Position numbers and translations under genes: made by a program | NCBI GenBank assembly: GCA_030272155.1 | Contig: CP126205.1 | Location: 670,501 to 734,500 of the forward strand | Reading direction: 5' to 3' | Length of the DNA stretch: 64,000 nucleotides | Origin: Tetradesmus obliquus | Taxonomy: Eukaryota; Chlorophyta; Chlorophyceae; Sphaeropleales; Scenedesmaceae | The notes under the pieces: model-generated | Told to the model about the DNA's origin: nothing | Seen by the model: the letters and a program-made list of their open reading frames with translations, nothing else | Databases searched by the model: none | Shown here: positions 3,046-63,991 of the stretch, in pieces | Layout of the letters: the number at the start of each line of letters is the position of its first letter | Numbering within the stretch: position 1 is the first letter of the stretch

Positions 3046-6000
3046 ATGCCGCGCGGATCAGTAGCAGTTGATGATGACATAGCAGCAGCAGGCGGGCCGG
3101 CAGACCAGTTGAAAGATAAGCCCAGGTGGAGCCCAAGGCTTTGCTTGAAGCCATTGCTGCCTGCTATGAAGCAAAGCTGGTTCCCTACGCTCGCTGGCAA
3201 GCTGCAGCTAGCTGCAGATGTGAGGCAGCAGCTTGGCCTGCAGCTAGATGCAGCCTGGCAAGTTGCCACCTGCCAGCATGCAGACAAGGCAGCAGAGGTG
3301 TGGATAACACACCCAGCGCTGCAGACTCGCAGCTTCAAGTCACGAAGCAGCGTGGTAGCATTCCTGCAAGCGCTGCAGCAGCAGGGGCTGCCGCTGCCGG
3401 GCGTGCTGGAGGCTGTTCCCGGAGATGTGCTTGCATTCGACATCTACACCAGCAGCCCATTTGCAGCTGCAGAGCATGCTGCCGCAGACTCTGCAGAGGC
3501 CCCAGCAGCTGCAGCAGCAGCAGCAGCAGTAGCAGACGCACCAGACAGCCCTGCTGCTGCCATGCGGCACTCGCTGCGGCAGCAGCAGCGTGCGGAGCGG
3601 CAAATTGAGCAGGCTGTCAAGCAGCCGCAGCAGCAGGAGCAGCAGCCGCAGGAGCAGCCGGACCAGCAGCAGCAGCAGAAGCGCAAGAGGTCGCAGCTGC
3701 TGGTAGCTGCTGCTGTAGGCCGTGCTAGGGGCGGCCCAGCAGCAGCAGCAGCAGCTGGGCAGCTTGATCTCGACAGCCCACCGCAGGCCAAGCGCATGCG
3801 CGGCGATGCAGCAGCAGCAACTAACCAGGCAACCGCTATTTCTATCAGTGGCATCCAGCAGCTGCAGCTGGTGCTGCCAGACGGCCGCCGGCCCTGCAAT
3901 AAAACCCTGGAGCAGCTCCACAAGCAGGTTTCACTGCAGCTGCCAAACGTGCAGCTAGACAGCGATTGGGTGGCTTTCCCAGCCTCACACATACACCCCC
4001 GGCAAGACATGTGCATCTTGCACCCCAGCTTCCCCCAAGGCTGCTTCCGCTCTGCAAGGGCAGTCGGGGTGTACCTGTCAGCACTCAAGCCGCGTGTGCG
4101 CAGCTTAGCAGCTGACCTGATCGTGCCGGGCCTGGCGGCTACAGCGCAGCAGCAGCAGCAACCCACGCCGGCGCAGGCAGCAGCATTAGCCACGCAGGTG
4201 GACAGGGCACTGGCAGTAGTGGGGCGCAGCTACACTGCCCTCTCAGCAGCAGCAGCAGCCTCATTCGAGCAGCAGCGCGCAAAGCTTGCAAGGGCAGCAG
4301 CAAAAGGCAGGCCAGGGCAGCAGCAGCAGCGGCTGCTGCCGCCGCTGCCCCCGCAGCAGCAGCAGCAGCAGCAGCAGCGCAAGCCTGGCAGGCCTAGCAG
4401 CAGTGCTGGCAGCAGCTCTGGACCTGCTGCTGCTGCTACCGCTGCTGCTACTGCTGCAGATACTGCTGCTGCAGCTGCAGCAGCCGCCGCCGGTGTAGGT
4501 GCCACATCGTGGCCTGCAGGCATGGACAAGCAGCTTGCAGACGGCCGCAGGCCGTGTGCTGCATCGCTTGCAGGAGTGATGAAAACAGTGGAGAAGAAGC
4601 AGCCGGGCTGGCAGCTAGATGGGCTGTGGCTTGTGTATGCAGCACGGGAGACAGCCCCCAAGCTAGACACCTGGCTGAAGCACCCTAGCCTGCCTGCTGG
4701 CTACTTCAGATCAGTGCGGGGCATGCTGATCTATCTGGATGCGCTGATTGCTGCAGTGGGGAAGTTGGGCAAGGATGTTCCAGTGCCTGGCCTGATCAAG
4801 CAGCAGCAGCAGCCGGCAGCAGCAGCAGGGGTGAGGCCAGCGCGGCAGATTGCAGCAGCAATCTTAGAGGCGCTCAGGGCAGCTGGTGGCGGCTTTGTCT
4901 GGAGAGGCCCTGGCAGCAGCATCAGGCAGGCAGAAGCAACAAAGCACCGGCTGCCTAGAGATGATGATGATGATGCTGCGCCTGTCCTGAACACTGCTGG
5001 CGCTGCTGGCAACGGCAGCAGCAGCGGCGGCGGCAGGGGCGCGGGGTACGGCGCAGGCTATGGGCTAGGCTCAGGGTATGGTGACATGGACTGCCTGCCA
5101 GCTGGGCAGCAGTTAGATGTGACAGTGTGGCGTCACCCGCCGATTGACCGGGAGTATGAGCCGCCGCCAAAGGGCTGCGCAGTACTGGTGCTGGGCATGG
5201 TGTTTGCGAGCGCTGCTGCTGCTGCTGCCGCGCACGCGGGCATGGCGCACCACCGCGACCGGGCCCGGCTCATGCAGCTGCGTGCCGGGTTACACTACCG
5301 CCCGCACAGCTTTGATCGGGACAACACCGAAACCTGTGGCCACCAGGGTCTGCATGTTCAGGGGAACTTCAACAGCACGCGGGGAGCCAGGGATGTCACT
5401 TTGAAGTTCCCGGGTGTGAAGTTCGGCGCGATCTTCTGCGACTACTTCCGCATGCCCACGGGTTACGCCTGCGAGGTGTACAAGCCGCAGCTGTTCACGC
5501 AGTTTGTGCCGGAGCTGGTGCGGAGGGGCGCCGTGAGCCTGGGCGTGCCCGTGTACGTGCCTAACAACCCGGTGCTGCTGAAGAGCCTGGCGGCGGCAGG
5601 TGCGCGTTTTGCTACTGTGGTTTACTGAGGTTTAGCTGGATGTATGCGGTTTTGGTGCTGCCTGCTATGTGTGGATGTGCCAAATAACCCGCTGCTGCTC
5701 AAGCGCCTCGCGGCAGCAGGTAGGATTGGTTGTGACATGAGCAAGCCGCAGCTGTTCATGCAGTTTGTGCCGGAGCTGGTGCGGCGCGGCGCCGTGGGCT
5801 TGGGTGTGCCGGTCTATGTGCCCAACAACCCCGTGCTATTGAAGAGCCTGGCAGCTGCAGGTGCGCGGCTGTGCTGCACTGATCCTGGTGTTTCCTTGCT
5901 GTGGGATTGTGGTTGCTTTTGTGCCTGTGCGTGGGTGCCTGTGTATGTGCCACAAAACCAAGTGCTGCTGAAGAGCCTGGCGGCAGCAGGTGAGGCCAGT

Positions 6001-11152: not shown

Positions 11153-14100
11153 ATGATCGCCGCTGTTGTGTGGCTGATGGCGGCCGTCGCCACAACCGCC
11201 TCTGCTTCGAGTGCAAGCCTATGCAGCAGCATGGCGGACGTGAAATCTGGAGCCGGCCACAACTGCGCTGTGTGGAGCGATGGCACTGCACGCTGCTGGG
11301 GTGGCAACGCTAACGGCCAGCTGGGTAATGGCGCCAACACTGCCAGCACTGCGCTCGTGGTGGTGCAGGGCCTGTCAGGCCTGAACATGGGCAGCATTGC
11401 CGCTGGAAATAGTCACACATGCGCTGTCTTGAGCGATGGCTCTGCCCGTTGTTGGGGCTTAAACAATGACGGCCAGCTGGGTACCGGCAACACAGCTTCC
11501 AGCAATGTGCCCGTGGTGGTGTCAGGCTTGAGCGGTGTGCGCGGCATTGCCACAGGAGCAGCACACACATGTGCAGTCCTCAACAACGGCAGCGCATGCT
11601 GCTGGGGCAAAGGTAATGCGGGACAGTTGGGTGATGACACCCTTGTCAACAGCAATTTACCAGTGGTGGTGTCGGGCTTGAGCAGCGTGGCCAGCATTGC
11701 CTCTGGAGCTAACCACGCATGCGCAGTTTTGTCAATGGGCACCGTACACTGCTGGGGCTTCAACAATTACGCCCAGCTCGGTAACACTGCAGGCCTCTTC
11801 AGCAAAGTGCCTAAAGAGGTGGCAGGCCTGAGCAATGTAGTCAGCATTGCAGCTGGGGCTGATCACATGTGTGCTCGTTTGAGCGATGGCACTGCACGCT
11901 GCTGGGGATCCAACGCTTATGGGCAACTTGGCAACCCGGTCAGCGGGCGTAGCAGCGTGCCTGTGGCTGTGTCAGGCTTGAGTGATGTGCGCAGCATTGC
12001 GTCTGGCGCCTACCACAACTGTGCGGTGTTACAGGACTACACTGCACGCTGCTGGGGGCGTAACAACCAAGGGCAGTTGGGTGGCACTGGCGGTGACAGC
12101 AACGTACCTTTGGAGGTGGCAGGCTTGATCGGCTTGAGCAGCGTGGTCAGCATTGCTGGTGGGTTTACCCACACATGCGCAGCTCTGCAAGATGGCACTG
12201 CACGCTGCTGGGGATTCAATGACGTGGGTCAGCTTGGTGGCGACTCTATCAAGATACCATGCCGTGAGTGTGTGCCAGGCGGCACGCTATCTGCTCACGA
12301 AAAAATGTGGCAAAGAATGCAGCAGTGTTCAGCATCATTCATGCAGAGGGATCGGGCCAGATTGCCCGGTGTTCATAAGAAGCTACAGCATCAAACTGGC
12401 ACTGAATGTTTCAAATCTTGTGCTGCTGTGTCGCTGGTAAACTGACTCTTGCGCCTCTGTCTGTGCAGAGGCAGCGTGCACCGATCAGCCCAGCACCACC
12501 ACCCCCGCCATGCCCCTCAACTCTGCCTGGGCCTGCCCTGGCAATGCGCCCGGCAGCAAGTGCAGCGCACAGTGCAACCCCGGCTACACTGCCCGGACCC
12601 TCACCAGCTGGGCTTCTACTTGCAGTGCTGGCGCTTGGAGCACACCGGCTGCCGAAGGGACTGATGCCATGCTGGACTGCAAACAGCACAGTGAGCTCTG
12701 CATCAACAGACAGCCACAGAAGCTCATACTGTTCAAGTTGGTTGAGCACCTCACCAGTATCCTCGCTGTTGGGCAAATGCTGCTGCTGATGCTGATGAAA
12801 TAAATCTGCCCAAGTACCCCAGACAAGCTGTGACCCTCTGCTGCTGCTGCTGCTTTTGCTGCTGCAGCTGCGACTGAGTGCTCTGGCACCCCAAGTACTG
12901 CCGACATGCCGGCTGGCGCTGCTTTCTCATGCAGCAGTGGTTCAAATGGAGCCAAGTGCAGTGCTTACTGCAGTGTCAACTTCACTGCATCAGCATCGTC
13001 ATCTTGGGTGTCAGCATGCATTGCTGGCAGCTGGAGTGCACCAGCCCCTGAGACTGGCGATGGCAGGCTGACCTGCCTTGCAAGTGAGCTCAGCAAACAC
13101 TTTTGGTTGCTGCTACACATGCAAGTGAATTGAACAGAGAAGCTTGTAGATCTCAAGAGCCTACCTCTGCATGCATGGCATGCTTTGCCTATGCCTTGCT
13201 GCCTGCACTGCTGCATGCTTTGCTGCAGGCTGCTCTGGCAACCCGATGTTCAACCCGGCCCTAGGAGTGTTCTCATGTGCGCTATTCACACCCAGTGGCG
13301 GCAATTGCAACGCCACATGCCTGTATGGCACCGTGCCGGGCCTGGCTGCTCCTGTTGCCACATGCACTGATGGAGTTTGGAACGTAACAGATGGAGTGTG
13401 TGCGAATGCACCAGTTGTGCCAAATTTCGTGACGTCATCAAGCAACTGGACCTGGTCCTCACCAGCAGCTGCAGCGCTGATGTGACAGACGCATTACTGC
13501 ATGCATTGCTGGCAGATCTGCAAGCGCTGCTGGAAAAGACTAACAGCACAGGGGTGATGTCAGTGGCTCAGGCGTCGTGTTCAGTCGATGTGGTGAGTCC
13601 CCTCTGCCTCGGCACCCTGGTCAGCAATACTGTGAAACTGCCGCCTTTTGGCATATCCAAGCAAGCGCCTACCCTGCAGTGTCTTATGCATGCATTTCCG
13701 CTGCATGCTGGTAGTCGTTGTTCAATGCAATCAATGTAGCGCGGCCTCAAGGCGCCACCACTAGCCACCTGACCCAGATGACATGTGCTGTTGGTGCTTT
13801 GCAGCCGCTCAGCAGGCTGCAGGTGGAAATCACCCCAACTGAGGAAGTGACAGCGAAGCGCAGGCGCACTGCAGCACGCAGCTTTGTGCGTCCTGCTGGC
13901 ACTGGAACCTTGGACAAGATTTGCACACTGATCTTGACTTCTGGATTGGCGCAAGCCATGCCCACCGTCATGAAAGGCAAGTGCTGCTGTGCAAGTGCTC
14001 CAACAGCAACAGCAGCAGACGTCTGGTCTGAACAAAATCAATCGTTGCAATTGATGCTCAAATGAACATGTGTTGCCTGGGCTGGTGCCACCGCAGATGC

Positions 14101-23398: not shown

Positions 23399-23432
<34 letters not shown>

Positions 23433-24168: not shown

Positions 24169-24201
<33 letters not shown>

Positions 24202-41415: not shown

Positions 41416-44400
41416 GGGCTCTGATGGCAGTGTGTTGGGTGTTCACACCCTGTGCCAACTCGATGAGTTGGGGCAGCGCTTGCGCCTCGCATCAAGGTGA
41501 GTGTATTTTTGAGCCACACGGGTATTTATTGATGCCCGGCAACGGGGCAATAGTGGTAGGCAGCACGTGCACAGCAGCAGTGCCCAACCCCCTGGCAGTT
41601 GCACCTGCCCTACAACCAAACCCTGCAAGCACATGCTCACCTCGAACCGTGAAAACCGTAGATGCCCATATTCCTTGTATCGTTTTCTGCGTATGTTCGG
41701 AATCAGCAGTGAAGCTCTGCATGCGCTGCATGTGCAACAGAGCCATCACCTTTTTGAACACGTCCAGTAACAACCTCCAATCAGCAAAAACTCTAGCTAG
41801 CCCTAAGCCGTCCCTAGCCATAGACCTAGCCTTTGGAATTCCTTCCAATTGTGTTTCTACCAGCCAATGCCTTTCCTGCAAGCCATCACATGCCTTGCTC
41901 TCTCTCTATGTGCACCAGAAAGACAGCGCCTGAGTCCACTGTGCCTTGCCACTGTCCTGCAGGCCCCTGAGCCAATCTCAGCTGGTTGCAGTAGCCCCAG
42001 GCCAACGCGTCTGTGCAGAGCTGCCACGTCAGCAGCAGCCGGGTGCATGCAGCGGCTGCTGCAGCAGCAGCACCGGCAGCACTGCATGGCTCGATGTGAC
42101 CGTGCTGCAGAGCAAGGCTGACCCAGCCAGCGGTAAGTACAGCAATGGGAGCCTGGCTTTCATCACTGCTTGCTGTTGCAGGGTGCTGATTGTTTGTTGG
42201 GGTTGTGCAGCAGCAGCAGGACCAATTCAAGGCCATGGTGATGCACTATCCCTGTGCAGCGATCGCAATCCCTTGTGGTCGTTTTCAAATTAGGTTCAGT
42301 TCAAATCGCCTGCTTGAAAATACCCGCGGTTCAACCATTCAAAGCCCTGGCTTGTGCCTGCTCGACAAGTGTAATCTGCCTGCTTGACAGTGCCTGCGGC
42401 CTGCTTGACAGTGCCTGCGGTAATGTTCTTGGCTTATGCGTGTCCCTGCTGTACAGGTGACCTGCAGCTGCTGGTGCAGCCAGACCCCCCAAGCAGCAGC
42501 CCTGTGCAGCTCACCGTGCAGCAGCAGCAGCAGTCTGCCATTACGGGCACGGTTCTTACTCCTGCAGCAGTCAACATGCCTGGTCCTGGAGGCAGCAGCG
42601 GCAGCAGCAGCAGCGGGGTGTGCAATGTGCGCGCGATACAGCAGGGCAACCTTGCTGCGGAGCCTGCAATGCAGCTGGTGCTGGCGCAGGCGGGCACATT
42701 GCAGCAGGTGCGTGAGGCAGGCAGATGGCACATGTTGCAGCTGCGCACTTGCAACTGTATGTAACTGTAGTGGCAATAACTAGCGCGCAGCTCCAACGAT
42801 GCGTAGCGCAGGCATTTGCATGTGCTTTTGTGTTTATGAGCCAGTGCGCAACTGCCCTGTAAGCTGCTCACTGCTATCATATGCTGCCTTGTACCCTGCA
42901 CTGCTGCTGCTGCCGCTGCTGCTGCAGGCTGCCCATTCGCGGCTGGAGCTGCTGCCGGCTGGCTGCTGCGCTGTTCCTACTGACAAGGCTGCTGCCTGTG
43001 GCTTACCCCAGGGCCTGGTGCAGCAGCAGCAGGGTGGTGGTGCTGACTTGTGGAGGTGCGCAGCTGTGCTAGCTGGATGGGTTGACTGGGGAGTGCTGGT
43101 GGGGTATCCTTGTTGTGTCACATGTTGTGTCGGTGTTGTTGAATTATGTGATGTGAGCGCTGCAGTCTTGGCAGGCAGGCTTTGCAAACAGTGATGTGTT
43201 TCAACAATGTGCCTCAACCAACCTGACAGCACCTTCACGGGCAGATACTATGAACACAACATCACTTGAAACACACCTGCATTACTCGTCCATCTGATCT
43301 GCAACTGGTCAGACAGCTGACACGCAAGGCGGTCACACTGGCCATGGTCAAACTTCTGTCTGTCAAACATGCCAACCTGCCTCGCTGCCTTGCTGCCAGG
43401 CTGCAGGTACTGTCTGCACCACCGCTTCTGCGGTCAGACTTCTGTTAGTCAAACCTCTGACGGTCAAACATGCTGACCTGCCTGGCTGCCTGGCTGCAGG
43501 TTCTGGCTGCGCCACCGCTTCTTCACTGCTGTAGGCTTCTAGCTGCGCGGTGTGGTCAAATGGGCCATGGTCAAACTGCTGACGGTCAAACATGCTGACC
43601 TTCCTGGCTGCCTGGCTGCAGGTACTGGCTGCGCCACCGCTTCTTCCCTGCTGTGGGCTTCAGGCTGGGTGACAGCCCCCAGCAAGCGCTGGCAGCACTG
43701 GCACAGCTGCAGGCAGCAGGCGAGGCTGCAGCAACCCTGCCTGCTGCTGCTGCTGCTGCTGCTGGCGGTAGCAGCCAGGCCCAACAGCAGCAGCAGCAGC
43801 AGCTTGCATCGCAGCAGTTTGGTGCTATGCAACAGGCAGCTGCGGGTATGATTGTGGGTGTGCAGCAGCCGCAACTACCGATCGCCTCCCCACAGCAGCA
43901 GCAGCAGCAGCTTGTGGTTGGCAGCAGCAGCAGTGCACCTGGCCACCTTGCAGTGCAGCCTGGGGCATCACTAGTGCAGGCTCCAGCTGACCTGGCACAT
44001 CCTGCAAGAGTCAGTGGCAGCAGTAGCACCCAGCCTCTTCCCAGCAGCAGCGCTGTGCCCAGCGCTGCTGTTGATGTAGCTGGTAGCAGTGCCCCTGCTG
44101 CTGCTGCCCCTTCTGCTGCTCAGGCTCAGCAGTTGGCACTTATGGCACACCTGCAGCAGTTGCTTGGCCAGCGGCAGCAGCAGCAGCAGCAGGCACAGCA
44201 GCAACTGCAGCTGCAACAGCAGCAGCAGCAGCATCCTCAGCAGCAACTGCAGCTGCAACAGCAGCAGCAGCAGCATCCCCAGCAGCAACTGCAGCAGCAG
44301 CAGCAGCAGTTGCAGCTGCCAGGGACTGTGCAGATTCAGGCACCTAGCCTACCGGCTGTGCCTTGGCAGCAGCAGCAGCAGCCGGCAGGCACTTTGTCGT

Positions 44401-44585
44401 CTGTGCAGGCAGCAGTGCAGCAGCAGCAGCAGGCGCAGCTGCCAGGGTTAGTCAAGCTGCAGCAACCCAACTTACTGTCTTCTCAGCAGCAGCAGCAGCA
44501 GCAGCAGCCCAACTTACTGTCTGCATCTCAGCAGCAGCAGCAGCAGCACCAGGTGGGCATCGCACTCTCAATGCAGGCAACAGTG

Positions 44586-44617
<32 letters not shown>

Positions 44618-44701
44618 AATGCCTCAGCCTCTTGGTTCCTTCTCTGCGCTGCTGTCATCAGTGCTGAATGACTCGCCGTCACCGCCACCCAAGCTGCAGC
44701 C

Positions 44702-44749
<48 letters not shown>

Positions 44750-45097
44750 TGCAGCTAGCCTTCAAGACAGGCTTGGCAGCAAGCGGCCTGCCACAAGCCT
44801 GGGCCCACCAGCAGCAGCACAAGTAGCAGCTCCTGGTGCTGCTGCTGCTGCCGCTGCTGCTGCCAAGCGGGTGAAGCTGGAGAATGCACCGGCAGCAGCA
44901 GCAACAGCAGGCAGTGACGTAGTAGACAGACGCAACCCTGCAGATCAGCAGAGGAACTCCTTGCAAGCGTCAGCTGCAGGACAGCAGCAGCTGCTGCAGC
45001 CGCAGCAGCATCCGGCACTACTGCTGCTGGGACAACAGCAGAGCCGTGCACTGCAGCTGCAGCTGGGTGCAGGCCTGCAGCTGCAGCTGCAACCTCC

Positions 45098-45129
<32 letters not shown>

Positions 45130-45257
45130 TTGCAAATCAGCAGCAGCAGCAGCAGATTGTGTCGCTCGCTCAGGCAGGGGTGCCACTATCGGTGCTCATT
45201 GCGCAGCAGCAGCAGTTGCTGGCACAGCTGCAGCGGCGGCAGCAGGCTGCAACACCT

Positions 45258-45289
<32 letters not shown>

Positions 45290-45574
45290 TGCTCACAGCT
45301 TTGTGCACAGCCTCCTGCCTCGGCAGCAGCAGCAGGCCAAGCGCACCTGTGTGACGCACAAGGCGCTCCACAAAGAAAAGCCACCCAAGAAACCAAAGGT
45401 CCCGAAGAGCAGCCAGCCCCCTGCAACATCTGCTGCTGCTGATAGACCGGCAGCAGCAGCACCTAAGGCTGCAGCAGCTGCTGCTGCTGCTGCTGCTGCT
45501 GCTGCACGGCCAGTGTCCACCAATCGCCGCAAGGCACAGCTGGGAAAGAGGACCAGCGCAAGCCGCTACAATGC

Positions 45575-45620
<46 letters not shown>

Positions 45621-45891
45621 GCCGCAGACACTGCCGAGCCAGAGACTGCAGCAGTGGCAGCAGCAGCGGCATCTGCAGCGCCGGCAGCAGTAGCAGCTGT
45701 GCCGGCAGATTTTGAGGCAGCAGGGATAGCAGCAGCTGCAGCAGCAGCGCTGCTGCCACCTGAGCCAGAGGATGCTGCTGCTGCTGCAGCAGCAGCAGCA
45801 GCACCACCACCAGCAGCAGCAGCAGGAGCAGTGAATGAGCCGGCCGGGATTCCAGCTGAGCCACAAGCAGCAATGGCGGTTGATGGCACTG

Positions 45892-45939
<48 letters not shown>

Positions 45940-46693
45940 TGGAAGCTTTCCGGGCGCCATCTGCGGACTACAGTATGCTTGGCGGATCAGAGCTGGAGCA
46001 GCAGCAGCAGCAGCAGCAGCCACCACAAGCTGTGTTGTCACTACCGACTGCTGCACCAAGCTCCGGTCAGTCACCAGAACCTGCGGTGCCAGCAGCAGCA
46101 GCAGCAGCTGGCAGCAGCGGCCTTGTGCTTATAGGTCTGAGTGGCACTGCAGTCATGCCTGACATGGCAGCAGCAGCAGATGCGCAGGCAGCAGGCCTTG
46201 CTGCTGCCGGTGGAGGTACAGGGTTCAAATCCCCGCGGCTGCAGCAGCTGCTGTGGCTGCGCGACTTTTTTGCCGGGCGGGGCATCTACCTGCAGCGGCT
46301 AGGACTGTCCATCAAGGAAAGCGGGACAGAGGAAGGTGGGTTACATGTTGCAGGGATGTGTAATGTGAAACAGCGCATAACCTCACATCACAGGACCGGC
46401 TGGCATGTAACCTATCATCAAGCTGCCCTCATCATTCCTTGCTTCGACAGTATGACACATCATGGCTTAGCACTGAAGCATGATCGACCTGAATGTCTGC
46501 TGTTCTGTTGCAACCTCTGCTAACCCCTGCTGCTGCTGCTGCTGCTGCTGCTGCAGGCATGTTCTTGGACGGCCACCCACTGCTGCTGCCAGGGCGGCTA
46601 GGCAGGCCCCGCTCAGAGGTGACGCGCCTCATCACAGCACTGCAGGCAGCAGCAGACAGGCTCGCAAAGAAGGTCAAAGCACACCCTGGAACA

Positions 46694-46731
<38 letters not shown>

Positions 46732-46998
46732 TGCTGCTGCTGAGCCTGCAGTAGCGGCAGCAGCAGCAGCAGCTGACGTGCCTGCAGCAGCTGCTGCAGA
46801 TGCACCTGCCCCAAGTGATGCCGGCAGTGCGCAGGATCAACAGCAGCAGCAGCAGCAGCAGCAGGCTAGTGCAGCAGCACCCAACCCCCACCTGCTGGCA
46901 GCAGCAACCGACATCGCTACAGCTGTGGAGCAATGCAGAAGGAAGCTGGGACTGGGGCCCTCGTCTACCGTTGCTGCTGCCGCCGCTGCTGCTGCCGC

Positions 46999-47034
<36 letters not shown>

Positions 47035-48100
47035 GCCAGAGGCCAGTGCAGGCAGTGGCAGCCTGAGTGCGTCAGCAGCTCCTGAGACAGCAGCAGCAGC
47101 AGCCACTGCCGGTACCGGTGGTGGTGGTGGTGCAAGTGGTGACGGCAGCGCCTCACACGCTATGCCTGCATCACCGAGCAAGAACAGCGCAGCCCAGGCA
47201 CATGTTGCCGAAGCAGCATTAGCAGCAGAAGCAGCAGCAGAAGCAGCAGCACCTGCCACTGCTGCAGCTGCGGCTGCAGGGGCTTCCTCAGAGCCAGCAG
47301 CAGCAGCAGCGCCGACTCCGTCGCCTAAGCCTGTGCCAGCTGCAGTGCGCAGCGGTCCTGTGGGTGTTGATGCATCCATCCTGGCAGAGCTCATGCAGCC
47401 CCGTCAGCAGCAGCAGCAGCAGGATGTGGGGCCATCCAACATGCTGTCTCCAGCAGCAGCAGCAGCAGCAGCTGACTTGGCAGCCCCTGGCAGCTCACAG
47501 GCGGCAGCGGCAGCAGCAGCAGCAGGCTCTGTAGCAGCACCACAACCAGCAGCAGCAGCAGCAGCAGCAGCAGGAGCAAGGGTGTCAGCACCCTATGCTG
47601 TGCCTGGGGTGCCTCTGGGCACCCTCATGCGGCCCCCAACTCAACATGCTGCACAATTTGTGGGAGCACCTGCTGCTGCTGCTGTTGGCTTTGCAGCACA
47701 GGCCCAGCCCCCTCCTCCAGCAGCAGCAGCAGCAGCAGCAACCTCGGCTGCACTGGTGCAGGCAGCTGCAATGCGTGCAATGCAGCTGCCCATCAGCACA
47801 CCAGCAGCAGCAGCAGCAGTTGCGCGCACGCTGCCGCGCCCTGCGCCAAGCATGCTGCTGCCACCAGGTATGCAGCAGCAGCTGCTGTTTGCGCCTCAGA
47901 TGCCGCACCTGCAAATGGCTGGTCTGCGTGCCTACCTGCCTGCTGCTACAGCTGCACTTGCGGCGCCAGCAGTGACGGCAGCAGCGCCAGCAGCAGCAGG
48001 AGCAGCAGCAGTGCCGCGTGGTGGGCCTGCTGCTGCGCTGTCTTTCATGTTAGGCCCTGGGGGCCCCCTGGTGCTGCTGCCAGGAGGGCCCGTGGCGCGG

Positions 48101-48132
<32 letters not shown>

Positions 48133-48217
48133 AGTGCCTGCGCTGCTGCCAGCTCAGCAGCAGCAGCAGCAGGGCGTGCCCCAGTCACAGCCGCCGCTGC
48201 AGTTCATGCCTCACTGA
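41416..48217 (+). CDS. Giant Gln/Ala-rich nuclear-type protein, 5' end uncertain
   Basis: Six exons keep phase: 41416-41496, 41963-42132, 42457-42707, 42928-43055, 43622-46335 and 46557-48217 (TGA), over 1,650 residues. The start codon is not found; earlier exons probably lie before 41416. Non-repetitive islands are few: GVHTLCQLDELGQRLRLASR, SQLVAVAPGQRVCAELPRQ, LWRYWLRHRFFPAVGFRLGD, a basic patch (KEKPPKKPKVPK), SPRLQQLLWLRDFFAGRGIY and EVTRLITALQAAADRLAKKV. The rest is alternating poly-Gln and poly-Ala with Pro. That composition and the basic patch suggest a transcription or chromatin co-factor, but no domain is recognised. Intron 4 carries two head echoes of exon 5, and the 3' flank carries one terminal echo. 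Confidence 0.7.
43405..43560 (+). repeat. Two head echoes of exon 5 of the Gln/Ala-rich gene
   Basis: GGCTGCAG followed by copies of GTACTGGCTGCGCCACCGCT lie at about 43405 and 43500. The second extends further (HRFFTAVGF) and then ends in a stop. Each is followed by TCAAACxTGCTGACGGTCAAAC-type spacer repeats. Confidence 0.88.
45578..45937 (+). repeat. Coding (CAG)n runs
   Basis: Uninterrupted CAG runs of about 12 units (45578-45614) and about 14 units (45895-45937) within exon 5, translated as poly-Gln. Confidence 0.9.
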
Positions 48218-50315: not shown

Positions 50316-53300
50316 ATGCAGAACATACAGGCTCAGGCGCAGCAGCTGGCCGAATCCATTGTACAAGCTACTGCTATCACCCACAATGTGGGATCGACAC
50401 CACAGCAGCGCGCCGAGGCGGTATCCTTCTTTGAGCAGGTGTGTGCACTGTGAACGAGTCTGTTGCGCAGCTTTACGTGTCTGCTCGCACCTCTTTCAAT
50501 CATTCAATCAATCCTTGATGTTTAACAACCGTTCTTAGCAGCTGCATCAGCCTCTCCGCTTGAGCTGGGCGCGCAACTGTGTTTGATTCCTGCTGGCTGT
50601 ACACACACCTTTCGTACGCTTGCGTGCTGTGATGCATCCGCTGCCGCAGCTGAAACATGGAGAGATTCACTCTACTGTATATGCGGCAGCAGTGCTCACG
50701 GGCAATGAGTATGCGCTGGAGGTGCAGATGTCAGCCTACACTCTGCTGCAGATCCTGGTGGGTGCTGTAGTCAGCAACTGCTCTTGCTGCACTATGCACC
50801 TGCTGATGAGGCCTTTTGCCTGTAACACCAGCAGCAGATGCATGCAGCCAACATGCTCGCTCTTCAGCAGCAGTTCTGCAAGTTTGAAGCATTGCAGCAG
50901 CCGAGACAGCATGCACGCACAGCACGCATTGCGATGGCAGCTGCTCCTGCGGCACTTTGCACCAGCATGTATGCCTTCTGATTCTTACACCAGCAACAGA
51001 TGCTTGAAGCCAACATGTTAGAAATTTGGCAGCAGTCCTGTATCTTCCATGCAGTGCAGCTCCTGAGACAGCATGCACGCACAGCATGCATTGCACGTGT
51101 GCCTGCACCCATGTTCACTCACACACCAGATTAGCACCAAATGTGGGTGAATGTTGCACTTCTGCCTGCTGCTGCAGGTGCGTAATCGCTGGGCTGAGCT
51201 GTCAGCAGATGAGCACCAGAAGATCACGCAGCTGGCGTACCAGCACATGAAGGATGGTGTGTGAAGCATGACGGTGGTGCACTGCTAGCAGCTGACTGAT
51301 ACTGCACCTTGTGCTAGATTTGCCGTTGCAGCAGCAGCCGCATGCTACCTGCGTCAGCAGCAACAGCAGCAGCAGCAGCAGCAGGTCTGACAAGGCATTG
51401 ACAAGCCGCACATGCGGTAGCTGTGAATGCATGACTTGAAAGGCACCCTGCCAGTTGCACCCGTTTCCTGCAAGCAACCATGACTGCCACCACTGCAATT
51501 GCTCCTGCTACATACATACATTGGCCCACAATTCACAATTCATGCTTGTGCCAGTACTGCGCCGTGTAAAAGCACACAATCCTCATCGTCCTGCATCTGT
51601 TTTCCTGCGCTGCAGTGGGCCACCTAGGGCAGCAAGCAGCATGGCCGCTCAAGTCAAAGTCAGCAATGCTGCTGGCAGCAGTTGCACGGCAGCAAGGCCC
51701 TGAGGCGTACAGTGCCCTACTGCCGCAGCTCATTGCATCAGCAGCAGAGGGCCCCATGCAGGCAGAGATCAGCTGCATGGTGCTGCAGTTTGTGAGTGAA
51801 GATCTGACGCAGTTTGAGGAGAGGGGCGGCGAGTGGAAGCGCAACTTTTTGTCGGCGCTGCTGACCTCAGTTGAGCAGGTGCTGCCCTTCATCGTGCGGC
51901 TGCTGCAGGTGAGATGCAGTTTGAATTGTGTTACTTTTTGTCTATTGTGTTACTTTGACTGAATGTGAGAAGGCCTGGCAGCAGTGGCTGGAGGGCTCCA
52001 TGCAGGCAGAGATCATCTGCATGGTGCTGCAGTTTGTGAGCGAGGACCTAACGCAGTTGAGGAGAGGGGCGGCGAGTGGAAGCGCAACTTCCTCTCGGCG
52101 TTGCTGACGTCAGTGGAGCAAGTGCTGCCCTTCATCGTGCGGCTGCTGCAGGTGAAACACTGTGTCATGTGTTACTTACAAGTGTTTTTTGACTGACATT
52201 AGGAAGCCTGGCAGCTGTCGGGCACATGCTGGCTGACGTCAGTGGAGCAGGTGCTGCCCTTCATCGTGCGGCTGCTGCAGGTGAGCTGCATTTTGCATTA
52301 TGTTACTTTCATTATGTCTATCGTGTTAGTTTGAATGAATGCAACTTTGACTGAATGCGAGAAGGCCTGGCAGCATTGGTCGGAGGCCCCATGCAGGCAC
52401 AGATCAGCTGCATGGTGCTGCAGTTTGTGAGTGAAGATCTAACGGAATTTGAGGAGAGGGGTGGCAAGTGGAAGCGCAACTTTCTGTCGGCGCTGCTGAC
52501 GTCAGTGGAGCAGGTGCTGCCCTTCATCGTGCGGCTGCTGCAGGTGAAAAAATCGTGTTATGCGTTAGTTATCAGTTTTACATTGACTGACATTAGAAAG
52601 CCTGGTCAGGCTTAGTAGCTGTCAGGCACATGCTGGCTGACGTCAGTGAAGCAGGTGCTGCCCTTCATCGTGCGGCTGCTGCAGGTGAGATGCATTTCAA
52701 ATCGTGTTACTTCCGTTGTGTCTATCTTGTTACTTTGAGTGAATGCAACTTAGACTGAATGCGAGAAGGCCTGGCAGCAGTGGTCGGAGGGCCCCATGCA
52801 GGCAGAGATCAGCTGCATGGTGCTGCAGTTTGTGAGCGAAGATCTAACGCAGTTTGAGGAGAGGGATGGCGAGTGGAAGCGCAACTTTCTGTCGGCGCTG
52901 CTGACTTCGGTGGAGCAGGTGCTGCCCTTCATCGTGCGACTCCTGCAGGTTAGAGAGTGTGTTATGTGTTTGTTATAGCGTTACTTTGACTGACATTAGA
53001 TAGCCTGGCAGCTGTCAGGCACATGCTGGCTGACGTCAGTGGAGCAGGTGCTGCCCTTCATTGTTCGGCTGCTGCAGGTGAGATGTGTTCTGCAGTCTGT
53101 TACAGGTGATGTGTCTGTTTTGCTACTTTAACTGAATGAGAGACGCCTGGCGGCGGTGGTCGGAGGGGCGCCATGCCAGCAGCAGGTGGCAGCTGAATGT
53201 GCAGCAGCAGCAGCTGGCAGTGCAAGGCAGGCACTGGATTTGAGGAGCCGCATGCTTGCAGACCAGTAGTATGGCAGTGCACACAGCAGCTGCTTGTCTT

Positions 53301-54827
53301 GCTGTCTGCGGTACATACAGGCAGCAGAACAAACAGCTGCTGGGTGCTATGCCCGTAGCTACGCATGGTAACACGCTGACGGCTGTCCTAGTAATGCAGG
53401 GGAGTGCTCGTGTACTGTATCTGCTGCCCAAGGTTTGTGTACGTCGCAGCCAAAAGCACTGTGTCCACTGCTCCTCCCACTTGTTTTTCTACCTATGCGT
53501 GCAGGAGAGCTTACAGGCAGGCAGCAGCGCCCTGCAGGTGGTCAGCCTTCATAGATCTCTCAAACTGCGGTCCTATATGTGATCACTGCTGCTGTTGCTG
53601 CTGCTGTTGTTGTGCTTGCAGGAAAGCTTCCAGGCCGGCAGCAGCTCTGCGCTGGTGGTCGGCAAACCTTCACAGACCTTTCAAAACCTTGGCCCTGTGT
53701 GTCACTGTTGCTGCTGCTGTTGTTGTGTTTGCAGGAAAGCTTCCAGGCCGGCAGCAGCTCTGCGCTGGTGGTCAGTTAACCTTCACACGCCTCTCAAATC
53801 TATGGACCTGTGTGTCACTGCTGCTGCTGCTGCTGTTGTGCTTGCAGGAGATCTTCCAGGCAGGCAGCGCCGCTCAGTTGGCAACCTTCATATGTATTAT
53901 AGAATATGTACTTCAAGTTTGTGCTGCCGTGCATGTCACCGGGGCTGTTGTGCTTGCAGGAGAGCTTTCAGGCGGGCAGCAGCGCAGCGCAGGCCGGCAA
54001 TGCAGAAGCAGCACGGCAGCACGCGGGCGTGGTGTCAGCAGCGCTGGGCGTTCTTGGCGGCTTTGTGGAATGGGTCCCAATGGGCCGGCTGTGTGGCGGC
54101 AGCGTTGTTGAAGCGTGCAGCTTCTTCCTGGGGGTGCATGACTTCAGGGACGCTGCACTGGCAGTCGTGAAGCAGGTGGGTGAACGCTGGATCAAGGCTC
54201 TGAGACGCTAGGTGTTGTCAGGCGCGCAGGGGCGTCTTGCTATGTCTTTTGGGGTGGCCGTAGCAGCAGGATGTTTGTGGTTTAGCGTGGGCACGCTTGG
54301 GCGGCTTTGTGGAATGGGCCCCAATGGGCCGGGTGTGTGGCGGCAGCGTTGTTGAAGCGTGCAGCTTCTTCCTGGGGGTGCATGACTTCAGGGACGCTGC
54401 GCTGGCGGTTGTGACGCAGGTGCGTTGGCGTTGGATCCAGTATCTTCTGTTTTACTGAGTTGCTAGGTGTTGTTGTGCGTGCAGGGGTGGTTTTGGTGTG
54501 TTGCGGAGTGGCGATAGCAGCAGGATGTATCAGCAGCGCTGGGCACGCTTGGGCGCTTTGTAAAATGGGCGCCGATGGGCCGTCTGTGTGGCGGCAGCGT
54601 GGTTGCAATGCGGAGGTGTATTCAGCACTCATTGCGCAAGTGTGCTATAGCCACGCTTCATTTGCTGAACTCGCCCTCGATGTGTTGGCTTTTGTTGCAG
54701 ATCGTTGGCCGCAAGCCAAACAAGGACCCTGGGGAGGTGGAGGCATACGCAGCAACCATGGCTAAAGTGGGAGATGCACTCACAGCAGCAGCGGCTGGCC
54801 TGCTGGCCACACCCAATGCACAGGTGC

Positions 54828-54867
<40 letters not shown>

Positions 54868-57800
54868 GCAGCAGCAGCAACAAGCAGCAGCAGCAGCAGC
54901 AAGCAGTAGCGGATGGGGCAAGGATAGTCTGCATGCTCAGATGCGCAGATGGTGCTGAATGTGTGCTACCCTGTAGTTGACCCTGTAGCTGCGCACAGCG
55001 CCACCTCATCATCATCGTCATGTTGCCCATCAAGCCACAGCATCAACGCCATCGGCCCAGCGCCACCTGTAGTCTAATCATGTTGGCTGTGCTGTGTTCT
55101 TTGTCACTGTCACCAGCTGAGTGCTGTTAACAGTAACAATGAACACAGCACGGCCAATACGATGGCCCTACATATATAGCTGCGTGACGTGCCGCTTGCC
55201 CTTCACTGTTGCTGCTTGCAGGAGTTGGGTGCTGAGGGTGAATGCTGGCGCCAGCATGTTGCAAGTGCACAGAAATGAATGCTGGATGCACCTCATTCAT
55301 ATGTCACCGCGCACCACACTGCCTGCTGCACCCCACTGCTTGCAGGGGGAGTTGGGTGCTGAGGGCGGCATCAACAGTATGACCGGCACTGCTCGAGTTA
55401 CTGTTCTGACAGCACGCCATGCTGCCCGCTGTACCAATGGGATGCTTTGCGACTTGCAGGAGGAGTTGGGTGCTGAGGGCGGCAGCGAGGAGTATGGCCG
55501 GCACTGCTTGCATCATCATTGCTGACAGCACGCCGTGCTGCCCGCTGTGTCACTGGCTGTGGTTTTGGGTCTGCAGGCGGATCTGGGTGCTGAGGGCGGC
55601 AGTGAGGAGTATGCGCGGCGCTTCCTGCATAACAACACTGCCTTCTTGATCATTGCTGCTGTATGTGTATGGTTGTTACAGGAGGAGCTTTGTGCTGAGG
55701 GCGGCAGCGAGGGGTATGTGCGGCACTGCCTGCATTACTGTTGCTTGCAACACGCCATGATGCACGATGTATCCAGACTTTGCCTGGCTTTTGTTGCTTG
55801 CAGGAGGAGTTGGGTGCTGAGGGCGGCAGCGAGGAGTATGGCCAGCGCTGCCTGCAGCATGTGGCGATGCTAATTGAAACCTTACGCTGCATTTTAAAAC
55901 CTACGCTGCTGCTTGTGGGTGCAGGAGGAGTTGGGTGCTGAGGGCGGCAGCGAGGAGTATGGCCGGCGCTTCTGCGGCGTGGTGGCCAGCTTTGCTGACG
56001 CGCACTGGCTGCAGATGAGCGGCGTGGCGCAGCAGCACCTGCTGCTGAGGCACGTGAGTGATTGGAAGCACCAAAATCAAGACATGAATTGCAGTTTAAT
56101 TGGCATACGGTCAAGGCAGCTGCATCACTTGCGGTTGGTGGAGCAGCTGTAGCAGCTGCGCTTTCCAGGCCCCTGCGTTTCCACCTATGCTGTTCCTGAT
56201 GGCTGTTGGTAGTGTTACGCCGCTGCTGAGGAAGCTTGTGACCTTGCAAGGTTGCAAGCGTCTCGAGCAATGGCTGGTCCTGCTGCAACAAACGTGTGAC
56301 GTGCGATATAAAACATGCTGCTGCAGATGCTGGAGTTCACGCGCCACCAGCACCTACCGCTGGCTACGGTGACCCTCTCATTCTGGGGCAGCCTGGTGCG
56401 TGAGGCAGGGGCCGTGCCAGGCCCTGCAAAGGCCTCCCCCATGCAGTCACCCAGGGGAGAAGGGTTGGGCCAGGCGGCTGCTGCTGCTGCTGGGAGTGGT
56501 GCTGGCGCTGCAGCAGCAGCAGTGGTTAAGAGCCAGCTCATTCCTCCAGAATGCTGCCAGGTGAGTGTTGTAGCGTGGGGTGCGCAGCAACAGGGGCAAG
56601 GGAAGGGTTGCTTTTTCATGCAATGTCAGTAACCGAAGGCTCAGCTTGCCAGGGGAGGCAGGGGCAGTGCCAGGGCCAGCAAAAGCGTCCCCCGTGCAGT
56701 TCCCCAGAGGAGAGGGCCAGTCAGCAGCTGCTGCTGCTGGGAGTGGCGCTGGCGCTGCAGCAGCAGCAGTGGATAAGAGCCAGCTCATTCCTCCAGAGTG
56801 CTGCCAGGTGCGTGTTGTAGGGTACGCAGTAAAAGGGGAAAGGCAGGGGTTGCATTTCCACACAATATCAGTAACCGCAGGCTCAGCTGGTCAAGGGAGA
56901 CGGGGGCAGTGCCGGGGCCTGCAAAAGCATCCCCTTATGCAGTCACTTAGAGAGGGCCAGGCTGCTGGGGGCCTGGTGCAGGGCCTGGCGGAGCAGCCTA
57001 TGTCACACCACAAATACACCCTCCAGCAGTCAGTACATGCATTCTGATGACATGTTGTGTCTGCCGCCTAGGGTTTTTCTACACCCCGCAGCTGCTGGTG
57101 CAGGACCTGGCGGAGCAGCTGCTGTGGCTGCCGGTGCGCTTCACCTGTGCCTGCTGTGCTGTACGTCTTTTTGACACAACTGCGTGTCTCTCGCTCTCCT
57201 TTTCTGCCCTGCAGCTGCTGGTGCAGGGCCTGGCCGAGCAGCTGGTGCGGCTGCCGGTGCGCTTTGACCCTGAGGGGGAGGTGCCGCTGTGGGCTGACAG
57301 CGCTGCAGACTACAAGGAAGCAGTGGGACAGTTCAGGAGCCAGGTGTGTACATTCGGGATAACACAGTTGTAGCGCGTATGATGCTCAACCAAGCGTGAT
57401 GTTCAACTGCAGAGTTGAGCTGCGCTGTGGGCGCCAATAGCAGCATAGTTCACGGTTTGCACTTTCGCATGGAGGCGCACTTTGACCCTGAGGGGGAGGT
57501 GCCGCTGTGGGCGGACAGCGCGGCAGACTATACAGAGGCTGTGGGGCAGTTCAGGAGCCAGGTGAGCAGTAGATGGATTTGTAAAGGCAATGCAGCAACA
57601 GAACATATCACGCTTGGTTGAGCGTGCAAGTGTTGGTAGATGTGTGAACAACAACACAGCGGACTACAAGGAGGCTGTGGGGCAGTTCAGGAGTCAGGCC
57701 GTGTTGTGCCTCCGCTGCACGTGCCCGGAGGACAATCACGTTGTCCGCGCTGTGGCTACATCCTGTAACACATCCATACTGCGTTGTGCTCCATGCTGCT

Positions 57801-58565
57801 TACCCCTGCAGGCCAAGCTGGTGGTGCGTGCTGCATCAAGGCACGTCTGTCGTGCTGCATTTGCATACGACCGTTGTGATGTGCCTCCGCTGCATGTCCC
57901 TGCAGGCCAAGCTGGTGGTGCGTGCTGCAGCAAAGCTCGCGCCAAGCCCTGTGCTGGGCTCAGTGGCAGCCTTCCTGCAAGCCGGTCTTCAAACCGCCGC
58001 CACCAGCAACAGCGCATTCACCACAGCAGCAGCAGGCGGGGATGCATCGCAGACGCTGCAGCAGCAGCGGGCACTGCAGCGGCAGCTGCAGCAGGGGCAC
58101 ATGGCACTGGAAGCAGATGTTATTTTGCTGGAGAGTGTGCTGCCGAGTTTGTGTGACGCGTCACTTGTTATAACAGCAGCAGGGCTCAAGGAGGGCTTGA
58201 CGGCGCTGCTGCAGCAGCTGATGGCGCAGCGCTACAGGGAGCCGCTGCTGGTGACGCTGGTGAGCTGCAAGCTGTCTTGTTTTGTTTGCATGTTGCTGGT
58301 GCCGCAGACAAGGCGCGCTTGGCTGCGTTTTGTGCTGCTTTTGTTTGGGGTCTGCTGCTTTTCTTTGGGGTCTGCTGCATATTAATGCACACACTCTGCA
58401 GCTTAGGGTACAGGGAGCCGCTGCTGGTGACGGTGCTGAGCTACAGGCTGTTAGGATGTTTGGGTCTGTCCTGCAATGCACAGACCGCATGTGGCCTGGC
58501 CTTCACAAAGCTGATCACTACACTTCGCGCACATGCATGCCTGCTGTCCTCAACATCAGCCGTGC

Positions 58566-58598
<33 letters not shown>

Positions 58599-59057
58599 GC
58601 TGCTGTAACAGCACGCGCGCGGCCTGGAATCCTTTTCCAAGCTCATCCCACTGGCTCCGGAGCTGCTGGTGCCGCTGCTGACCACCAGCTTCGAGTGCAT
58701 GGCTGCCGTGCCGCTGGAGCAGAGCGGGCAGCTGCCGCCGCCCGCAAAAGTGACGCTGCAGTGGAAAGAGGACGCCATGGCACGCCTTGCTATGGCAAAG
58801 GTGGGCGTCTGTTGCTTCGCTTTTGATTGTTGATTGGTGATATACTCTTCCCTACGGACCATGCCCCGCAAATTATTTGCAGGCTTGCGCCCCCCATGTG
58901 TTGCTGCGAGGCTTGATACTGTGGCGTGCACAACTTGTGCGGGTGGTGTTGGTTGCAGGAGGGCACAGGGCATGAAATTGTGAAGCTGCAGTGGAGTGTA
59001 AGTGTACTGTCAACGCATCTTGATTCGTCATGCATGGTTGCGCTTCTTGGCGTATAT

Positions 59058-59109
<52 letters not shown>

Positions 59110-61461
59110 AGGTGATGCTCAACGTGGCGAAGGAGGCGGTGGCTGCCTTCTTGCTACAACCATGGTGACGAGCAGTCCTTGCTACTGCTGCTGCTGCCGC
59201 AGGTGATGCTCAACGTGGCCAAGGAGGCGCCTGCTGCCTTCCTGCCGCACCTAGAGGCGCTGGCGGCGCGCGTGCAGCAGCTGTGGGACGCGGGGCAGCT
59301 GCGAGAGGGAGAGAAGGTAAGAGGGGGGCTTGGTGTTGATGTTGATTTCCAAAGTTGGGTCAGTTGGACATGTACCGGCTGTGCAGCAGGACATGTACCG
59401 GCTGTGCAGCAGCTGTGGGACGCGGGGCAGCTGCGGGAGGGAGACAAGGTGCGGGATGAAAACAGCTGCAGTTTGAGCCGATGGCTGTGTGAATGGTTGC
59501 TGCATGCATGCGCCAGTTGAGGCAGCAGCTGTGGGACGCCGGGCAGCTGCGCGAGGGAGAGAAGGTCAGGAGGCCAGCAACGGTGTACTGAACAGCATTC
59601 AGAGCATGCCATGTATGCTTGTGGGTGAAGTAGTGGGGGCGGCCACTGCAGGAGGGCGGAAAGGTGCAATGAACGGCTCAAGTTGCCTGCAGCAGCACAG
59701 CAGGCTGGGCCAGCATGCGTCTTGGGCAAAAGCAGGCTGCGCAGCAGCTGCTAAAAGTAACAGTGACATCCAATGCTTGCCTGACACGGCAAGACACAAT
59801 GCTGCCCGCACCTTCCCCAGCATATCTGGCAGACACATTGTCACAGCAATTCAAAATATCGCATGCGCTGTGCTGCCCTCAACCGCAGGTTGCGCTGCAC
59901 GAGGGCTTGATGGCTGCAGTCAGCGGCTGTGATGTGCAGCTGCAGCACCAGCTGCTGGATTGGCTCCTGCTGCACACATGCTGTCGCAACTAACTCAGCA
60001 GCGCTGTCTCCTCTGCTGCGTATTTACCGCAGGTTGCGCTGCATGAGGGCTTGATGGCTGCAGTCAGTGGCTGCGATGTGCAGCTGCAGCACCAGCTGCT
60101 GGACTGGCTGCTGCGCCCGGTGCATGCCAAGTGGAGCACTGAGGCCTGGCTAGGGCACCTGGCAGGTCCTGCAGAATTTGCCGCTGAATACATGCAGCAT
60201 GAGGTGCAGGGCACTGCAGTGGTGGTGGGCAGCAGGTGAGAGCTGATGTCTGCAGTATGAAATGTGTTGTTTTGTTACTTTCGGTTCAAACACACGCTGT
60301 GCATTGTGTGCCGCAGCTGCTTGTTGTGGCTTTGCCTAAACCTAGGTTCCTTTCTTGTAAGTGGTTTTCATTCTTCTGCCGTCGCTGTCTGCTGCTTTGC
60401 AGTCCGCAGCGCTGGTCGCTGCATCATGAGCTGCAGCTGTTTGAACGAGTGCTGCGGCGGACACCACCACCAGACAAGCAGGCAGCAGCAGCAGCAGACC
60501 CGCAGCAGCAGCAGCAGCAGCTACTACAGCAGCAACAGCAGCCGCAACAGCACCAACAACAGCAGCACCCCTTCACGCCTCACTTGGAATGGAGCCTGCT
60601 GCCTGTTGCAGCCATTACGCGCTGCTTGCATGGCATGTATACCCCTGATATACAGGTGCGCAGGGTGCTGCCTCCAGTTGCAAGCCTGCACGGGCTGCCA
60701 GCTGTCATCTTTGTGACTGTGCTGCGAATGTGCTGGTGATGTACACATGTTTGCTGCCGCCTTGCATGCTGCTCCTTTGTCAGGTTTTGACAACACCTTG
60801 CACATCTGTGAGTTGCCTGTCGTTTGCTGCCAATCCCAACAGCCGCCCACACTGCCTGCATGTACATGTGCCAATGTTACTGTTGCATCACTCACGCCAC
60901 TGCTGCTGCACCACCCTGCAGGCGCGGCTGTCGCCCATCGCTGCTGCGTCCGCCATGCACCTGGTGTAACAGGGTACTGCGCCTTGCTTGATGCTCAAAC
61001 TTCAACACCTCTGACACAGCCTGACATGCTTCTTGTTGCTGCTGTTCTGCGACTCTGCAGGCGCGGCTATCACCCATCGCTGCTGCCTTCACCATGGACC
61101 CGGTAGAAAGGGCGCTGCGAGTTGGCGGGGAGCGGGAAGTCGCCAAGAAGAGCGAAGAAGAGGCCGGCACCATCGCAGGTGAGCAGGAAGTATGGCGGGA
61201 AGTTTTGCATCATGAAGTATGGCGGGAAGTTTTGCGGGAGCTTGCAATCTCACCCGGAATCCAGTGCCCTGCCTAGGTCAGCAGTTCTGTGCAGCGTTCG
61301 AGATACAAACCTGGTGCCTACGCCCGACACACAGCCTGAGCAAGTGGGCAGCCGACGCATATGCTGCACACATAACAGCAGCTGTGTGTGCCATGTATGG
61401 TTGTGCTTGCTCTGCTTCCCTCCGGTTGACTGACGCTGCGCCCTGCTAAGCTGCCTCACTT

Positions 61462-63991: not shown

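Follow-up and report, generated by a model that had tools for sequence, protein, structure and literature searches.

The window analyzed here is a stretch of 64,000 nucleotides of Tetradesmus obliquus chromosomal DNA, at positions 670,501-734,500 of contig CP126205.1, in a genome of 104.66 Mb on 17 contigs. The passages of PMC5966456 that describe the genome of this species give 107.7 Mb, 15.7% of coding sequence and a mean intron of 462 bp. Three genes of the window, coding for a septin, the proteasome subunit PSMA4 and exportin-5 (HASTY), have introns that carry copies of the ends of their own flanking exons, hereafter called echoes. Copies of the 3′ end of the upstream exon are called tail copies, and copies of the 5′ end of the downstream exon are called head copies. 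The three genes are as follows (positions are those of the window):

23253-32381, minus strand: septin gene, P0127 (OEZ86_009587), exact spliced mapping in 16 segments, two of them <30 nt
34471-38205, plus strand: PSMA4 gene, exons 34471-34632, 34975-35062, 35881-35996, 36645-36703, 37111-37246, 37704-37817 and 38119-38205
50316-60239, plus strand: HASTY/exportin-5 gene, P0121 (OEZ86_009590), exact spliced mapping in 15 segments, one of 12 nt

The seven PSMA4 exons were read by eye and, once joined, they encode the T. obliquus proteasome alpha protein A0A383WPX1 (253/253 residues). The main counts use the published protein models of the three genes, that is 31 introns and 62 exon-intron pairings. 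Three mapped micro-exons of <30 nt were excluded before counting, as was the annotated HASTY exon 57475-57561, which is itself an echo and was hence counted as a copy. Each exon was compared with its own introns and with introns that it does not border, after masking of low-complexity sequence and at a score of at least 22.

Copies of Exon Ends in the Three Genes

In the 62 own pairings we counted 61 exon-end copies, against a single match in 400 sampled shuffled exon-intron pairings. These were 35 tail copies and 26 head copies, 25-175 nt long; at least one was present in 21 of the 31 introns and at 30 of the 62 exon sides, and together they make up 3,840 of the 17,837 intron bases of the three genes. 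The copies were anchored at the splice junctions, as 33 of the 35 tail copies end within 12 nt of the exon 3′ end and all 26 head copies begin within 12 nt of the exon 5′ end. When an intron contained both kinds, the upstream-exon copy came first in 43/43 position comparisons, with no violation of this order, and upstream-exon copies lay on average at a relative intron position of 0.33, downstream-exon copies at one of 0.78. In the alignments that reach the junction, GT was kept in 23 of 27 tail copies and AG in 16 of 17 head copies. The observation is therefore real: the introns of these genes carry polarized copies of their own exon ends.

A first-pass annotation of this DNA had claimed that introns repeat the ends of their own flanking exons, that upstream-exon copies fill the 5′ half and downstream-exon copies the 3′ half, and that splice sites usually travel with the copies; all of this was borne out by the above counts. 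It had placed echoes in six genes. With real exon coordinates they were found in PSMA4, septin and HASTY, and two others showed local repeats, namely strong direct repeats at 5470-7500 in the putative gene at 3046-7648 and one array at 43329-43667 adjoining the Gln/Ala-rich open reading frames (ORFs) at 43599-48217. Its estimate of about one hundred copies is plausible, with 61 counted in three genes. The main copies and arrays are the following:

24724-25594, minus strand: head and tail copies around septin exon 25202-25280
25823-28019, minus strand: head and tail copies around septin exons 26043-26177, 27082-27184 and 27611-27718
30210-30522, minus strand: two tail copies of septin exon 30457-30565
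35953-36479, plus strand: four copies of the PSMA4 exon-3 tail in intron 3, with two alternating spacer types
36982-37024, plus strand: copy of CAG and the initial 40 nt of the fifth PSMA4 exon, identical (100%) to 37108-37150 and with unrelated flanks
37432-37486 and 37554-37616, plus strand: two copies of the PSMA4 exon-6 head, the latter of 63 nt and 100% identical
37930-37993, plus strand: PSMA4 exon-6 tail copy with donor
38151-38654, plus strand: PSMA4 coding-end copies including the stop codon, in the 3′ untranslated region (UTR), a border without splice site
51978-53077, plus strand: six tail copies of HASTY exon 51616-51908 in intron 4, long ones (~160-175 nt) alternating with short ones (53 nt), unit ~404 bp
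53456-53993, plus strand: head copies of HASTY exon 53960-54175, in the 3′ part of intron 4
55206-55986, plus strand: five head copies of HASTY exon 55925-56053
57475-57561, plus strand: tail copy of HASTY exon 57215-57343, used as an exon in the public annotation, with repeated FDPEGEVPLWADSAADY.EAVGQFRSQ
59882-59970, plus strand: head copy of HASTY exon 60033-60239, 94% identical

The spacer between the PSMA4 copy at 36982-37024 and exon 5 has no other match in the genome. In the stop-codon repeats of PSMA4, the coding part is far more alike than the UTR part. The existence of these repeats shows that a coding border without splice site can be copied too, and that a splice site is not strictly required. 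The HASTY echo used as an exon is missing from all three relatives aligned (P0123-P0125), and its coding status in P0121 may reflect either a faulty gene model or genuine exonization.

Spacing and Anatomy of the Arrays

The spacing between consecutive copies was 97-171 bp in 45 of 52 cases (list counted by hand), and the periods were even modulo 3 (51/47/43). The length of exon copied was 34-87 nt within the 90 nt examined, and reached 175 nt in HASTY intron 4. Some arrays, such as that of HASTY intron 4, show alternating spacer types or copy lengths, which indicates that blocks of copies were duplicated again.

Over 49 pairs of an exon (the master) and its copy, the exon part had a mean identity of 0.90 and the intron flank one of 0.59 (chance ~0.49). 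When gaps were permitted, the similarity of tail copies continued for at least 20 nt beyond the donor in 19 of 38 cases and ended within 15 nt in the other 19; unrelated donors would give about 3/38 such extensions. For head copies the figure is 5/12 (unrelated acceptors ~3/12). In HASTY and septin, the similarity ran on into the intron in 11/22 tails and 5/14 heads. The spacers of one array were related in 43% of pairs. Whole-unit copies were seen at locus L051 of the family set described below, where the exon part is 97-99% identical and the nearest flank 100%. The word "tandem" used in the first-pass annotation is thus adequate for only about half of the copies; in the others the likeness covers the end of the exon and its splice site and does not extend to the intron beside them. 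As copies of one array are not independent, copy-level p-values are indicative.

Decay of the Copies

Pooled over all copies, mismatches to the exon looked coding-like (0.070/0.045/0.155 at codon positions 1, 2 and 3). This impression disappeared once differences private to one copy were separated from shared ones. Private differences were evenly distributed (35/35/42 on codon positions 1/2/3, p 0.65) and included 3 stops, and 17 of 18 indels were frame-breaking. Differences common to several copies numbered 13/5/40 and those common to all 2/0/6; from their position, these shared third-position differences look like synonymous changes that the exon underwent since copying. Single-copy cases, which are not polarizable, gave 13/10/27. 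GT was absent from 12 of 40 tail copies (family and PSMA4 set), and the rate of donor decay in tail copies is close to that of the copied exon.

The copies decay neutrally, as dead sequence does, and they are neither alternative exons nor kept decoys. Coding constraint on the copies was rejected on the basis of the even private changes and the frame-breaking indels, and alternative exon duplication on the same data, as an in-frame constraint is not seen. A diverged haplotype or homeologue as source, raised by the shared third-position bias, was dropped because this bias is equal (2.5-2.9) with or without related flanks. The first-pass annotation had seen in the copies a supply of decoy splice sites, a function that is not supported in view of the private changes with their stops, the indels and the missing GTs. 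It had also described many stages of decay, and this holds in part, identity in the family sample being concentrated at 85-95%.

Excess of Arrays at Junctions

A null model of random ~130-bp duplications, of which only harmless ones are kept, yields 39-58% of junction-spanning arrays, depending on intron lengths. For the three genes, the array-free intron lengths entered in this model were 12 values approximating the family percentiles, and its spacings were those listed above except 61 and 67 (50 of 52). With BLAST as the one method for both classes, we found 24 exon sides with arrays versus 2 purely intronic arrays (p 6.3e-5 against a null of 0.56). In the family sample, 17 junction arrays stood against 5 intronic ones (p 0.046). 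Among the non-exon repeat pairs, 13/17 lie within echo arrays, as judged from coordinates. Junction arrays exceed the null, which means either that junctions are favoured or that junction copies are preserved longer.

At the BLAST level, two arrays of the three genes lie entirely within introns and are not part of echo arrays:

28091-28786: ~180-bp array within a septin intron
50774-51094: 163-bp array within HASTY intron 2

Exon-End Copies Elsewhere in the Genome

Searches centred on septin, kinase and proteasome exons gave a family sample of 66 loci. Of these, 15 had no anchored exon and two (L057 and L063) were dropped as lying in the window, leaving 49 loci. L012, the PSMA4 stop-codon copies and copies of <0.82 identity were omitted from several copy-level tests, and L073 and L074 enter in no statistic. 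The exon cores compared with their own 1.5-kb flanks revealed 43 downstream copies, all from the exon 3′ part, and 11 upstream copies, all from the 5′ part. No polarity exception was thus present among 54 direct copies (7 of them at L057/L063, in the window), and there was 1 inverted match. The comparison of exon cores with flanks of other loci gave 307 matches, or 4.7 per pairing, and is an unclean control because many loci are related or overlapping; the shuffled pairings of the three genes and the control pairings of the 107 exon ends below are cleaner. For 107 exon ends (the 49 family loci and PSMA4), 53/53 matches at a score of at least 25 were anchored at the splice end, when the control gave 0.4 matches per set of 107 pairings (five sets, same score).

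Exon-end copies also occur on several other contigs. Among the anchored family exons, BLAST arrays span 10 donors out of 46 and 7 acceptors out of 49; in the three window genes, a comparable BLAST search finds them at 24 of 62 exon sides. The border-copy rule is general in this genome and its frequency is variable. The window is a hot spot of local direct repeats, which cover 30% of its bases (RCC1 and ankyrin blocks included); coverage was 10.5% over the 66 family loci and 3.9% over six 10-kb loci taken at random. Direct and inverted local repeat pairs numbered 112/4 in the window, 161/0 in the family loci and 14/0 in the random loci; 109 of the 112 direct pairs of the window are no more than 1.2 kb apart.

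Donor-side arrays were richer in copies than acceptor-side ones (43 vs 11), the loci affected being similar in number (13 vs 10). A possible reason is that, with first-come splicing, duplications at donors do less harm.

Two kinase paralogues, L017 and L020, lie ~9 kb apart on opposite strands of one contig. Over exon stretches of 718 and 176 bp they share 93-95% identity, including unbroken identical runs of >100 nt; their introns have no visible similarity and an earlier exon is only 77% alike. From the alignment, this pattern looks like exon-limited gene conversion.

Origin of the Copies

We consider, with confidence slightly above even, that the arrays result from recurrent local duplication across exon-intron borders, silent for the protein, followed by duplication of blocks and neutral decay. 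Short stretches straddling a border would have been duplicated repeatedly in direct orientation, usually leaving copies 97-171 bp apart. A duplication crossing the donor would be tolerated as the first donor stays used and the copy becomes intron, and one crossing the acceptor as the last acceptor stays used. Such a choice of the first donor and last acceptor would make tail copies accumulate downstream and head copies upstream, the intron growing while the protein is unchanged. Blocks of copies would then have been duplicated again, and the copies would have decayed neutrally. Repair of breaks with staggered ends is the molecular cause that we favour, and plant work has dealt with similar duplications. 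In mouse and human cells, the fill-in of staggered-break overhangs gives short (<100 bp) direct duplications (PMC8355091, in its sections on this process, where no link to splice junctions is mentioned), and such duplications are a possible source of the T. obliquus events. The first-pass annotation had likewise proposed that introns grow by short duplications at their splice junctions, polarized and bringing the splice sites with them, and this part of its reading is supported. That the process is continuing, as it added, is plausible in view of the L051 copies at 97-99% exon identity and the 43-nt PSMA4 copy at 100%, but unproven.

The location of the copies, their polarity, direct orientation, spacing, neutral decay and excess over intronic arrays are established. 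What recurrent duplication does not explain is the preference for junctions and the unrelated intron flanks in about half of the copies, and a series of observations weighs against it. A plain duplicate of a junction should be nearly as similar in the adjoining intron as in the exon part, and this is untrue for about half of the copies, which keep the exon end and the splice site with an exon part ~90% identical and have intron flanks at chance similarity. The exon parts of these unrelated-flank copies are as alike as those of whole-unit copies, and exon and flank identities are uncorrelated (rho -0.13, p 0.34). Ungapped similarity ends at about +6 of the donor and about -4 of the acceptor, although the cut-off at +6 softens with gapped alignment, half of the copies being short and half long. 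Acceptor-grade sequence persists before head copies (0.55 versus -0.64 at intronic CAGs; n = 10 vs 3312, p 0.0005), and family identity is clustered at 85-95%, not spread down to the detection limit. Neither the loss of flanks nor the +6/-4 edges, the acceptor-grade sequence or the identity peak are predicted by simple duplication and decay. Also, at a score of at least 16, 20 of 79 own matches were unanchored at the splice end, with 5.2 unanchored expected from controls. Finally, a sensitive aligner applied after blanking the echoes detected internal repeats in 7 of 31 introns (control 0/60 intron pairs), only one of the seven being without echoes, and this aligner reduces the junction excess (p 0.0013 for 30 exon sides against 7).

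Some of these points would be met if the arrays were old and junction-spanning, and had been kept similar by gene conversion with the exon as master, their intron parts having drifted to saturation. We regard this as possible, on the unlikely side. It fits the decoupling of exon and flank identities, the greater similarity of nearer copies (rho -0.36, p 0.0095), the position of most shared differences at third codon positions, and similarity edges that match the limit of constraint, stop codon included. Differences are mostly private and 22 of 42 informative-site pairs in eight alignments fail the four-gamete test, and the paralogues L017 and L020, with 93-95% identical exons beside dissimilar introns, offer a parallel. 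However, no overall mosaic was found along the copies (Fisher p 0.53; 5/47 copies with p<0.05), for which reason partial conversion tracts were rejected; acceptor-grade sequence before head copies is unexpected after saturation, and conversion on islands of 45-90 bp must be assumed. Another mechanism would place a fragment consisting of an exon end and the core of its splice site in the intron next to it, perhaps via an RNA- or spliceosome-linked intermediate. The +6 and -4 edges, the acceptor-grade sequence, the anchoring of all 53 strong matches and the chance-level flanks (<0.60) of 7 of the 12 master-copy pairs with at least 95% exon identity would suit such splice-limited copying. We nevertheless doubt it considerably, as about half of the tails continue into the intron (19/38 by at least 20 nt vs ~3 expected; 11/22), as donor positions +1 to +5 (0.70-0.75) are less master-like than the exon part in unrelated-flank copies, and as the stop-codon echo has no splice site. 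In a broader form, a border-recognizing process would repeatedly copy the exon end and the splice-site core into the adjoining intron with a preferred spacing of ~130 bp, which we find unlikely. These degrees of confidence overlap, since conversion and splice-limited copying would supplement recurrent duplication, not replace it.

The copies could also be the product of ordinary, genome-wide tandem duplication in ~130-bp units under purifying selection on coding sequence, junctions standing out only through the intolerance of exon interiors. Repeat coverage is indeed about level through the introns beside donors (~14-23%) and drops inside exons, the null alone gives the 39-58% of junction-spanning arrays mentioned above, and 7 of 31 introns have internal repeats of their own. 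The excess of junction arrays (24 vs 2, and 17 vs 5 in the family), the coverage of only 3.9% in random loci and the unrelated flanks of half of the copies make this explanation, in our opinion, a rather improbable one. That selection keeps the copies as functional decoys for splicing or as alternative exons is very improbable: GT and AG are mostly retained, one copy is annotated as an exon (57475-57561) and the pooled mismatches seemed coding-like, but private changes are neutral, indels nearly always break the frame, donors decay about like the rest of the copy and the annotated copy is missing from three relatives. An assembly artefact can practically be dismissed, as divergence from the exon is 5-20% for the majority of copies and the pattern recurs on several other contigs.

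Relation to Known Systems and Significance

The lengthening of introns is usually attributed to transposons. Intronic minisatellites have tandem units of ~100-180 bp, a similar size; the units in T. obliquus differ, being anchored at exon ends with strict polarity. Introners add intron sequence in bulk, algae included, and the echoes resemble them in this respect. However, an introner is a multi-copy element found across genes, whereas the two spacers that we searched genome-wide had no match outside their own array (2/2), and an introner or other mobile spacer was rejected on this basis. In the part of PMC9860276 devoted to these multi-copy elements, some introner families have target duplications of 3-9 bp; the duplicated exon ends in T. 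obliquus are 25-175 nt long.

The AGGT model of intron gain, as outlined in the relevant part of PMC3443670, involves a local direct duplication containing exon sequence and splice-site motifs, by which an intron is made from duplicated exon. The likeness lies in the local direct duplication of exon sequence and splice-site motifs. By our deduction from this outline, the model implies downstream-exon sequence at the intron 5′ end and upstream-exon sequence at its 3′ end; the order in T. obliquus is the opposite in 43/43 comparisons, in multi-copy arrays, and does not fit intron gain of this kind. The nearest event that we found in the literature concerns the RdRp gene of potato, in which, according to the corresponding section of PMC4974935, one tandem duplication across the acceptor, with polypyrimidine tract and AG, gave rise to a new intron and added exonic sequence; the same section reports an 83-bp duplication inside an intron of this gene. 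The duplication spans a splice border, as those of T. obliquus would, and the repeats of T. obliquus are local and direct (112 vs 4 inverted pairs in the window). The potato case as reported there is a single event, whereas dozens of copies, normally silent, are found in T. obliquus. The earlier view that no such system had been described must thus be qualified: border-crossing tandem duplication was known, but as a single event making a new intron. Our searches of the open-licence PubMed Central literature showed no report of exon-end copies in introns of Tetradesmus or Scenedesmus, and no account of introns made in bulk from their own exon ends.

The T. obliquus arrays are a direct record of junction duplication and offer a natural test of splice-site choice by the spliceosome where many nearly identical sites are present. 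They also call for caution in annotation: a simple generalized hidden Markov model gene finder trained on this DNA repeatedly called echoes exons, and one public T. obliquus gene model (HASTY P0121) takes an echo as an exon. If the junction bias is mechanistic, it would link splicing or exon-border chromatin with mutation. Under the border-recognizing process considered above, anchoring at the splice site would imply a link of splicing or transcription to DNA duplication, and introns would lengthen by gathering fossils of their own splice junctions.

Other Repeats of the Window

The RCC1 block at 11225-12244 and the ankyrin block at 1149-1484 were not taken as echoes, as they are protein-domain repeats mimicking tandem duplication. 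The GC content at third codon positions of the RCC1 and ankyrin ORFs is 0.61 and 0.56, versus ~0.8 in the intron-rich genes. A 105-bp array of 3.4 copies at 45-503 lies outside all predicted genes. CAG/CTG trinucleotide runs are abundant across the window, some of them within echo spacers.

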